From assembly GCA_945865925.1 (NCBI GenBank), contig CAMBFG010000003.1, forward strand, positions 124,001-188,000: DNA of 64,000 nucleotides, in the 5' to 3' direction. Of the stretch, positions 35,842-47,932 are shown piece after piece. Within the stretch, counting starts at the first letter, position 1, and every line of letters starts with the position of its first letter. A model generated the notes under the pieces. The model was not told the origin of the DNA. It was given only the letters and a program-made list of their open reading frames with translations, and searched no databases. The stretch is from Dehalococcoides mccartyi (GTDB lineage Bacteria; Chloroflexota; Dehalococcoidia; UBA2979). Made by a program: the position numbers and the translations under genes.

Positions 35842-36690
35842 GTGCAAGACGCTTCCCCCGGCTCAACCGCGGTCGCCCTCGTCGACGCGATCGAGGCTGC
35901 CCTCGCGGGCGGGCCGCCGGTCGCTGTCGCGACGGTGGTGACGGGCGGCGCGGCGAGCTTGGCTGCTGGCGCGAAGCTGCTGGTGCGCGCGGACGGGCGG
36001 ACGCTCGGCTCGCTGGGAAGCGCCGAGGCGAACGAGGCGCTGCGGGAGATTGCGGTCGCGGCGTTCACGGCGATGCCGCGGATCGTGACCGGCACGTGGT
36101 ACCTCGCTGACGGTGCCGCCACGGACCGTCCGTCGCAGGCGGTCGAGGGCGCTGCCGAAGTGATGCTCCAACTGTTCGAGGCGCCCGCGCGGTTGGTGAT
36201 TGTGGGTGCCGGCCATGTTGGCCTGGCGCTCGCGACGATGGCTGAACTACTTGGGTACGAGACGACGGTGCTGGACGACCGCGTCGAGTTCGCGAACCGC
36301 GAACGGTTCCCGATGGCGCATCGCATCCTCGTCGAAGAGGTCGGCGCCGCGCTCGACTCGCTCACGCTCGACGCCTCGACGGCTGTCGTATTGGTATCGC
36401 GCGGGCACCGGGTGGACGAAGAGGCGCTGCGGCACGCGGTCGGGCGAGGCGCGGGCTACGTGGGGATGATCGGGAGCCGGCGTCGGACACGGACGGTGCT
36501 CGACCACCTCGCCGCCGAGGGGTACCCGGCGGCGGCGCTGGAGGCGGTCTCGACGCCGGTGGGCCTCGATATTGGGGCGGAGACTCCGGAGGAGATCGCG
36601 GTGTCGATCCTGGCGGAGATGACCATGGTGCGGCGCGGTGGCACGGGCACGCGAATGAGTCAGAATCGGTCAGCGGACAGTCCTACATAA
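35842..36690 (+). CDS. XdhC/CoxI-family protein with Rossmann domain, degenerate N-domain
   Basis: A 282-residue XdhC-type protein; this family inserts sulfurated molybdenum cofactor into xanthine dehydrogenase or CO dehydrogenase type enzymes. The C-terminal XdhC Rossmann domain is clear: LVIVGAGHVGLALA, TVLDDR and GAGYVGMIGSRRR...GLDIGAETPEEIAVSI. The N-terminal domain is degenerate: the expected GxIGGGCxE reads GSLGSAEAN, so the Cys is lost. The intact N-domain is encoded separately at 36972. Confidence 0.85.
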   Translation: MQDASPGSTAVALVDAIEAALAGGPPVAVATVVTGGAASLAAGAKLLVRADGRTLGSLGSAEANEALREIAVAAFTAMPRIVTGTWYLADGAATDRPSQAVEGAAEVMLQLFEAPARLVIVGAGHVGLALATMAELLGYETTVLDDRVEFANRERFPMAHRILVEEVGAALDSLTLDASTAVVLVSRGHRVDEEALRHAVGRGAGYVGMIGSRRRTRTVLDHLAAEGYPAAALEAVSTPVGLDIGAETPEEIAVSILAEMTMVRRGGTGTRMSQNRSADSPT

Positions 36691-36721
36691 CGCGCAGCGC
36701 TTATGCTATCGTCCACGCGCC

Positions 36722-36850
36722 GTCGGTTGAAACCGGATTCGGTGAGGCCGCCGCTCCTAAATGCCAGTTCCCTCTGGGGCATCAGGGCCGAGCAATCGGT
36801 CCTGATGCTTTATGGGCCCCTGCGGGTGGGCCCAAGGCATCAGATCCGGC
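36722..36850 (+). ncRNA. Structured RNA element, candidate Moco-type riboswitch
   Basis: A gene-free stretch between two XdhC-family genes with strong folding potential. It has a GGUGAGGCCGCCGCUCC core, an imperfect hairpin atgccag/ctggggcat, and a 13-bp helix 36779-36791/36796-36808 capped by a GCAA GNRA tetraloop. A gggccc/gggccc hairpin follows. The 3' strand CTGATGC of the long helix can instead pair with a second GCATCAG at 36837-36843, suggesting a switch. The Moco assignment rests on the neighbouring genes and partial recall of the motif. Confidence 0.5.
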
Positions 36851-36933
36851 GCGTTTGGGGCGCTCGCCGGTGAGCGTGCGGCCTCTCACGTATTACGTCT
36901 GTCCTCGGCTGACGGATCTCAGGCCTTGCGCCG

Positions 36934-36939
36934 TATGAT
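36934..36939 (+). promoter_or_regulatory. -10-like element (TATGAT) upstream of the small XdhC gene
   Basis: TATGAT with a weak CTGACG -35 at an 18-base spacing. It lies downstream of the structured RNA, so it might give a riboswitch-independent transcript. Confidence 0.35.
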
Positions 36940-36971
36940 CGAGGCGAACCCCAATCGAGCGGGAGACCTGT

Positions 36972-37283
36972 ATGTCCCTGGATCTGTACCGCGAACTCCG
37001 CGAATCCCTGGCGACCGGGCAGCCGCGCGTCCTGGCGACAGTGGCGGACACCCGCGGCTCCACGCCTCGGAAGGCTGGGGCGCAGATGCTCCTGCGGCCG
37101 GACGGGTCGTTCTCCGGGACGATCGGCGGCGGTTGCGGCGAGGCGGAGGTCTGGCAGGAAGCCATGGAGACCATGGCGGACGGGCAGCCTCGGACGGTCG
37201 TGGTGGACCTCACCGAGCCGGTGGACGGCGACGACAAGATTTGTGGTGGCGTGATGCGTGTGTTCGTGGAGCGGATCGGGTAG
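36972..37283 (+). CDS. XdhC/CoxI small N-terminal domain protein
   Basis: A 103-residue protein consisting only of the XdhC/CoxI N-domain: VADTRGSTPRKAGAQML, then GTIGGGCGEAEVW with the conserved Cys, and ICGGVMRVFVE. It complements the upstream protein, whose own N-domain has lost the Cys. The two are likely to function together in molybdenum hydroxylase maturation. GGGAGA precedes the ATG. The molybdoenzyme itself is not in the window. Confidence 0.88.
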   Translation: MSLDLYRELRESLATGQPRVLATVADTRGSTPRKAGAQMLLRPDGSFSGTIGGGCGEAEVWQEAMETMADGQPRTVVVDLTEPVDGDDKICGGVMRVFVERIG

Positions 37284-46375: not shown

Positions 46376-46403
46376 CGGTGTCAGTCGCTGGCCTTGGCTG
46401 GCG

Positions 46404-46522
46404 GTTCATCCAGAGCGGGGGAGGGCACCGGCCCTGCGAACCCGCCGCAACCGGCCCCCTTCGCCAGGGAGGACACGGTGCGAATTCCGGCCCGTCAGCA
46501 CTCGGCTGGCGGGAAGATGAAC
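46404..46522 (+). ncRNA. SAM-I (S-box) riboswitch
   Basis: The S-box core is plain to read: ccagagcgggggagggcaccggccc, tgcgaacccgccgcaacc, ggtgcgaattccggcccg and gggaagatgaac. P1 closes as a perfect 7-bp helix, gttcatc (46404-46410) with gatgaac (46516-46522). S-box RNAs bind S-adenosylmethionine and usually turn off methionine or SAM synthesis and uptake genes. The regulated operon here is the threonine-synthase-like gene, the NIL protein and a sulfur carrier. Confidence 0.95.
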
Positions 46523-46597
46523 GGAAGGCGCCGGAACCCATGACACACCCGATACCCGCGCTGGCAGCACCCTCCATGGGCCGCATGGTGATGCGCT

Positions 46598-46678: not shown

Positions 46679-47932
46679 ATGTCCTTTGCCAAAGCGCTCC
46701 GCTGCCGTGAATGCGGCCGGGAGTATCCCCTCGACCCCATCTTCTCCTGTGAGTTCTGCTTCGGCCCGCTCGAAGTCGCCTATGACCTCGATGGCATCCG
46801 GGCAGCGGTGAGCCGCGACTCGATCGCGGCTGGGCCAGCCACGATCTGGCGCTACGCGCCGTTCCTGCCGTGCGACCCGCAGTACAAGGTCGACCTCGGT
46901 ACCGGTTACACGCCGCTGATCAAGGCCGACCGCCTCGCGAAAGCGATCGGCCTCGACACGCTGTGGATCAAGAACGACACCGTGAACCCCACGTGGTCGT
47001 TCAAGGATCGAGTCGTGTCGATCGCCATCGCCCGCGCGCGGGAGTTCGGCTTCACCGCGATCGCCTGCGCCTCCACCGGCAACCTCGCGAACTCGGTCGC
47101 GGCACATGCGGCCGGGGCGGGGATGGAGTGCTTCGTCTTCATCCCGGACGACCTGGAGCAGGGCAAGGTCGTCGGCTCCGGCATCTACAACCCCACCGTC
47201 GTGAAGGTGCGTGGGTCGTACGACGACGTGAACCGCCTCTGCACCGAACTGTCGATGCAGTACCCGTGGGCGTTCGTGAACATCAACGTGCGCCCGTACT
47301 ACGCCGAGGGCTCCCGCACGATCGGCTTCGAGATCGCGGAGCAACTCGGCTGGCGCACCCCGGATCACATCGTCGCGCCGATGGCGTCCGGATCGATGTA
47401 CACGAAGATCTGGAAGGCGCTGCAGGAGTTCAACAAGGCTGGCCTCATCGACGCGCCGAAGACGCGCATGTCCGGGGCGCAGGCTGCGGGCTGCTCGCCG
47501 ATCACGACGGCCTTCGAGAAGGGCACGCTGAACTTCACGCCGCAGAAGCCGAACACCATCGCGAAGTCGCTCGCTATCGGGAACCCCGCAGACGGCTACT
47601 ACGCCCTCAAGCAGATGCAGGAGACCAACGGCGGCGCTGAGATGGTCACCGACGACGAGGTCATCGAGGGCATCAAGTTGCTCGCGGAGACCGAGGGCAT
47701 CTGGGCCGAGACTGCTGGTGGCGTCACCATCGGCTGCCTGAAGAAGATGGTCGCCTCCGGATTCATCAAGCGCGGTGAAGAGACCGTCGCGATCATCTCC
47801 GGTGGCGGCCTGAAGACCCTCGAGGCTGTCGTGGGCGCCGTCGAGGAGCCGCTGCACGTGGACCCGCGCATCGCGTCGTTCGAAGAAGCCAACCGGGCAC
47901 GCAAGGGCGTGCTCGTCGGCGCACAGGCATAA
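46679..47932 (+). CDS. Threonine synthase-like PLP enzyme under SAM control
   Basis: A 417-residue fold-type II PLP enzyme annotated by similarity as threonine synthase (O-phosphohomoserine to threonine). An N-terminal zinc ribbon CRECG...CEFC (residues 9-27) is followed by the PLP-Lys motif NPTWSFKDR and a phosphate loop ASTGNLANSVAA. Canonical threonine synthases have NPTGSFKDR and STGNTS. Given the S-box riboswitch and the coupled NIL and sulfur-carrier genes, it may instead make homocysteine from O-phosphohomoserine. That is inference. Confidence 0.85.
   Translation: MSFAKALRCRECGREYPLDPIFSCEFCFGPLEVAYDLDGIRAAVSRDSIAAGPATIWRYAPFLPCDPQYKVDLGTGYTPLIKADRLAKAIGLDTLWIKNDTVNPTWSFKDRVVSIAIARAREFGFTAIACASTGNLANSVAAHAAGAGMECFVFIPDDLEQGKVVGSGIYNPTVVKVRGSYDDVNRLCTELSMQYPWAFVNINVRPYYAEGSRTIGFEIAEQLGWRTPDHIVAPMASGSMYTKIWKALQEFNKAGLIDAPKTRMSGAQAAGCSPITTAFEKGTLNFTPQKPNTIAKSLAIGNPADGYYALKQMQETNGGAEMVTDDEVIEGIKLLAETEGIWAETAGGVTIGCLKKMVASGFIKRGEETVAIISGGGLKTLEAVVGAVEEPLHVDPRIASFEEANRARKGVLVGAQA

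Follow-up and report, generated by a model that had tools for sequence, protein, structure and literature searches.

A covarying two-hairpin RNA between xdhC genes in a family of Dehalococcoidia: a candidate small RNA gene

Two genes of the XdhC family lie one after the other on the + strand of the window, by which we mean the whole 64,000-nt stretch of Dehalococcoides mccartyi DNA that was analysed. The upstream gene, xdhC_up (35842..36690, +), carries the Pfam domains XdhC_CoxI and XdhC_C, and the downstream gene, xdhC_dn (36972..37283, +), carries XdhC_CoxI only. Pfam thus confirms the family assignment that an earlier, sequence-only reading of this DNA had made on both sides. On the + strand, the fold of the 281-nt stretch between the genes is modestly better than that of its shuffles (z = -2.1); on the - strand it is better still (z = -4.1). 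Its folding signal is concentrated in positions 36762-36814, where the + strand reaches -31.6 kcal/mol (z = -6.0) and none of 200 shuffles folds as well.

This segment holds a conserved two-hairpin RNA core (36762..36812, +, as delimited by covariance model R2). The window sequence scores 78.9 bits with model R1 and 71.7 bits with R2, and the core consists of a hairpin (H1), a longer helix (H2) and a short U tail, in that order. H1 (36764..36777, +) pairs CCAG (36764-36767) with CUGG (36774-36777) around the loop UUCCCU (36768-36773). H2 (36779..36808, +) is a terminator-like helix of 13 bp, with arms GCATCAGGGCCGA (36779-36791) and TCGGTCCTGATGC (36796-36808), one G-U pair and a GCAA loop (36792-36795). 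The first U of the tail (TTT, 36809..36811, +) is at least 90% conserved across 28 copies. At its 3' end, the core therefore presents a strong hairpin with only about three U, and a simple terminator scan calls no terminator there. Given so short a U tail, H2 may not terminate transcription efficiently.

Comparison among relatives makes it almost certain that the element is a structured RNA of the + strand. Across 28 distinct copies, 97.5% of cells are paired (99.2% in H2), and double compensatory changes occur at 8 pairs, seven of them among the 13 pairs of H2 and one in H1. Shuffles give a mean of 3.7 such pairs, and none of 500 comes as high. The covariation score is likewise raised, at 0.368 compared with 0.201 in shuffles and at most 0.121 in slid controls. 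The sequence-only reading had proposed a structured RNA between two xdhC genes, with a 13-bp helix capped by a GCAA tetraloop, and had named covariation among homologues as a check. The eight double-change pairs provide it, and because H2 covaries, the helix is real, far beyond chance. Further, the + strand of 25 copies shows 30 G-U/U-G pairs and no A-C/C-A pair, so the selected molecule is the + strand RNA. This asymmetry also bears on the idea of a DNA-level palindrome or dispersed mobile repeat, which would account for the presence of more than one copy in several genomes. A DNA palindrome, however, would not keep G-U while never showing A-C; the window's own genome has a single credible copy, and 25 genomes from 11 genera have the element at one and the same site. 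We regard such a repeat as scarcely credible.

The loop of H1 is invariant in the 28 copies while its flanks diverge. TCCCTC and the GG right after it are the same throughout, and in the alignment GCCAGTTCCCTCTGGGGC is followed by a helix of variable sequence with a GGGCCGA...TCGGCCC top. The CCAG/CUGG form of H1 is backed by one double change (CCGG/CCGG, in L102). RNAalifold favours CCC-UCU-GGG for H1, a pairing that never varies and that would hide UCCC; in the form described here, UCCC lies within the loop in 28 of 28 aligned copies. Genera g3, g4 and g12 carry a variant, GGGGGTATCCCTCTGGGGC, with an extra helix between an upstream CCAG and the loop. This inserted helix changes with pairing kept, for example from CCGAG/CUCGG to CCAAG/CUUGG in L117, and it belongs to the minimum-energy structure of most, not all, variant sequences folded alone. 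In L114, degenerate remnants of the motif in tandem (ATTCCCTCCGTGGCATGG, CTTCCTTCTGTGGCATGGGGCCGG) lie 3' of the main copy.

Two further features of the window sequence were rejected after comparison. A leader peptide from ATG 36761 does not keep its frame: there is no conserved ORF in the RNA, L126 and L128 have a TAG that breaks the frame, and L103 lacks one base. A pseudoknot between UUCCCU and a downstream GGGA fails because that GGGA is not conserved.

A DNA-level comparison with 40 relatives showed positions 36746-36812 to be conserved in several genera that share the window's family. Model R1 matches 28 of 44 family genomes (E up to 0.01) and R2 matches 25 of 44 (E up to 0.001). In 25 genomes from 11 genera of this one Dehalococcoidia family, the RNA sits between xdhC_up and xdhC_dn in sense orientation. 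Outside the family, matches in 393 class-wide and 400 phylum-wide genomes are marginal and mostly plain hairpins. Five loci from other families or classes (L097, L098, L115, L219, L220) have H2-like hairpins without H1 and were set aside as probably ordinary terminators. In L221, TTCCCTC precedes a hairpin, a marginal match (E 1e-4, one of 400 genomes). An exact scan for CCAGTTCCCTCTGGGGC across 84,980 species genomes returned 34 stretches; roughly two in three belong to Dehalococcoidia or Chloroflexota, and the rest are scattered singles. As far as searched, then, the element is specific to one Dehalococcoidia family.

In six genera that have xdhC_dn, the RNA was not found beside it. Among motif-lacking loci, L149, L157, L158, L161, L167 and L168 show a short spacer with one -10-like element between the xdhC genes; in other motif-lacking genera the adjacency is lost or the gap is longer. 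These MAG assemblies are incomplete, which makes absence from a single genome weak evidence and absences that agree across whole genera better evidence. Mapped on a tree of both XdhC proteins, presence of the RNA takes 3 changes compared with 5.6 in shuffles. This agrees with an early gain followed by losses, in a direction that the tree does not fix.

The guess of a molybdenum-cofactor (Moco) riboswitch, first made from the neighbouring genes for molybdenum-enzyme maturation, found no match: a cmscan that accepted E values up to 10 over 36500-37200 did not return RF01055. It gave only mir-2320 (a eukaryotic miRNA) and adapt33_3 (a lncRNA), both far below threshold, and Rfam 15 scans of the whole window and of the loci in relatives gave nothing at the motif locus at gathering scores. 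The single hit in the window at those scores lies elsewhere. It is a SAM riboswitch (RF00162, 70.3 bits, 46403-46523, +) found 5' of an ORF (46679-47932) that is labelled threonine-synthase-like from its sequence. Beyond the lack of an Rfam match, the core measures about 50 nt and has no multi-stem junction, and other copies lie beside genes unrelated to molybdenum. We consider a Moco/Tuco riboswitch, or another ligand riboswitch of known class, very improbable despite the adjoining genes. The suggestion that the RNA could be a new class has fared better, as it matched no known Rfam family. A literature search found no xdhC riboswitch, no C-rich sRNA of Dehalococcoidia and no described regulatory RNA for this family.

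A built-in alternative helix had also been proposed, in which a second GCATCAG competes for the partner of the same sequence in H2. The second GCATCAG does exist (36837-36843, +), exactly 58 bases downstream, and the alternative helix is possible in the window sequence, at about -26 kcal/mol with its inner hairpin. It is not conserved, however: GCATCAG at +58 occurs in the window genome only, and L123 and L132 keep an identical GCATCAG arm without the repeat. An exact downstream copy of the arm is present in 3 of 24 homologous loci, at distances of 58, 92 and 137, and no conserved pair of mutually exclusive helices emerged from these 24 loci.

Promoter-like elements lie on both sides of the RNA, as judged by counting patterns in the sequence. 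On the 5' side is P1, a -10 region TATGCT overlapping the extended -10 TGCTATCGT (36702..36712, +), with no clear -35. The extended -10 pattern TGnTAnnnT occurs within about 130 nt 5' of the motif in 20 of 33 copies, compared with a mean of 1.1 and a maximum of 4 in first-order (dinucleotide) random controls and 0 on the opposite strand. These counts suggest that the RNA has its own promoter. In L114 and L105 the -10 directly abuts the motif, so that the core alone would be the transcript. On the 3' side is P2, the putative -10 of xdhC_dn (TATGAT, 36934..36939, +), and of 24 loci, 22 have a -10-like hexamer in the interval from the motif to xdhC_dn, where random controls give 3.9.

The upstream region of xdhC_dn also contains a TACG-N16-GGATCT element (36894..36919, +). 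It occurs with strict spacing in most motif-bearing xdhC loci, at a varying distance from the -10. Since it is absent from RNA copies away from xdhC, it belongs to the promoter region of xdhC_dn and not to the RNA. It is probably a DNA site separate from the RNA, and possibly the site of a regulator. Just 5' of it, a second partial copy of GTTCCCTCTG (L126, L128) or of GGGGGTATCCCTCT (L113) can be seen, each matching its own genome's variant.

As an alternative to a free-standing RNA, the element might be an attenuator leader of xdhC_dn. Transcripts from P1 would then run through H1 and H2 into that gene, H2 would be a conditional terminator, the choice would be set by H1, with its UUCCCU loop, or by a protein or ligand that binds H1, and P2 would supply a basal level. 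The location between both xdhC genes, in sense with xdhC_dn and kept in 25 genomes, fits this, as does the short spacer before xdhC_dn in the six motif-lacking loci named above. A pairing is possible between UGCC, 5' of H1, and GGCA at the base of H2, some copies elsewhere are 5' of a gene (L105, L107, L109, L110), and the L102 copy is near a convergent cluster with a molybdenum-hydroxylase subunit. Yet any cis switch for xdhC_dn is weakened by the conserved -10 between the RNA and that gene, and by copies with no sense gene downstream (L102, L104). The distance from the motif to the start codon of xdhC_dn is variable, from 92 to 273 nt, and there is no conserved alternative helix. A long-range helix around the motif was rejected as a common feature, with a mean score over all loci of 33.8 compared with 32.2 in shuffles and some loci without room for it; such a helix looks good in genus g1 (GAGGCCGC/GCGGCCUC) and in genus g9 (L122, L125, L121), where 13 bp (GAGCGACGGUCGG/CCGACCGUCGCUC in L125) enclose the RNA, a trait that is not family-wide. 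We hold a leader to be unlikely, and give it weight because the site beside xdhC is so well kept.

A second copy, away from xdhC, is present in several genomes (L100-L105, L107, L109, L110), and genomes with at least two copies keep the same loop. L107-L110 are weak matches, at 29-37 bits (R1), and L104 is intermediate, at 44 bits (R1) and 52 bits (R2). Three copies follow a stop codon, in L101 (solute-binding protein), L102 (thiolase region) and L103 (ABC permease). Others lie 5' of a gene, in L105 (carboxyl transferase), L107 (NUDIX) and L109/L110 (CMD). The L102 copy stands between the thiolase region and a convergent Ldh_2 gene, behind which lies a molybdenum-hydroxylase FAD subunit. In L104, the copy is between two antisense genes, with no sense gene downstream; L102 and L104 are thus exceptions to any rule that would place the RNA, in every case, in a sense gene's 5' UTR. 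The L100 copy is in a stretch without a convincing gene, with TTGACC-N17-TATTAT upstream. No common function was found among the neighbours of these copies.

The copies of L101, L102 and L103, shortly after a stop codon, would also suit an element that serves the upstream gene as a specialised terminator or stabilises its 3' end, in which H1 binds a protein and no separate regulatory RNA is made. The strong GC helix and the short U tail after it point the same way, and in L228 an H2-like hairpin with the same GAGCAAUC top follows an upstream stop codon without H1. A terminator, however, needs no invariant CCAGUUCCCUCUGGGGC, and would not call for the promoter-like element between xdhC_up and the motif. 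In L104, L107, L109 and L110 no sense gene ends just 5' of the motif, and the window's own genome does not use the exact GGGCCGA-N-TCGGCCC hairpin at other sites. On balance, we find this explanation unlikely.

We propose, with a probability of about 0.5, that the element is a lineage-specific family of small RNA genes, marked by an invariant loop that contains UCCC and by a hairpin resembling a terminator. This is the best fit because the element has its own promoter-like sequence, a short body, an invariant loop and a strong 3' hairpin with a short U tail, and because some genomes have more than one copy with no fixed downstream gene. Transcription would start at P1, just after xdhC_up, and give an RNA of about 100 nt, or about 50-60 nt where the -10 abuts the motif. 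The RNA would end at H2 or be protected by it. H1 would present the invariant UUCCCU loop, which may pair with purine-rich sequences of the AGGGA type, such as the Shine-Dalgarno regions of target mRNAs, and so repress them; this last step is suggested by analogy with known small RNAs. Against a small RNA gene, its constant place between the xdhC genes of 25 genomes suggests a role in cis, the motif of L101, L102 and L103 lies close after a stop codon, as a terminator would, and roughly half of the loci have GGGA at the ribosome site of xdhC_dn. There is also a small chance that the RNA is a new cofactor- or protein-sensing class that links molybdenum-enzyme maturation, through the xdhC pair, with further metabolic genes in trans, by way of a UUCCCU-loop regulon that includes the copies elsewhere.

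Whatever its role, the element adds a covariation-supported structured RNA, unmatched in Rfam 15, to what is known of a family of uncultured Dehalococcoidia. Its invariant loop and fixed site beside xdhC make it testable through metatranscriptomes. Among known systems, it resembles the Moco RNA motif (RF01055) in its proximity to molybdenum-enzyme maturation genes, but it is far smaller, shares neither architecture nor covariance-model match, and has no conserved switch. The top of H2 and the short U tail recall intrinsic terminators whose hairpins have GGGCCGA...UCGGCCC tops, such as the one that follows an rplL-like gene end in L097, but these are without H1 and the invariant UUCCCUCUGGGGC stretch. 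The Chloroflexi-1 RNA (RF01698), one of 104 candidate structured RNAs of 2010 and reported from Chloroflexus aggregans only (PMC2864571), is likewise a lineage-specific candidate from comparative genomics in the same phylum; Rfam 15, which lists that motif, gave no match here.

The closest parallel to a small RNA gene is offered by the UCCC-motif sRNAs of low-GC Gram-positive hosts, namely LhrC of Listeria, RsaE and other Rsa RNAs of S. aureus, and FsrA of B. subtilis, whose UCCC loops pair with Shine-Dalgarno regions (PMC4132741, PMC5826253). Like them, the element would be a short RNA that carries UCCC in a loop beside a terminator-like hairpin, and it is present in several copies in some genomes. 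Unlike them, it is a predicted RNA with a weaker U tail and a GC-rich Dehalococcoidia host; it shows no detectable sequence homology to them and no Rfam match. Should it prove to be a trans-acting sRNA that works through a UCCC loop, the use of C-rich loops as a strategy would reach into a GC-rich lineage of Chloroflexota.
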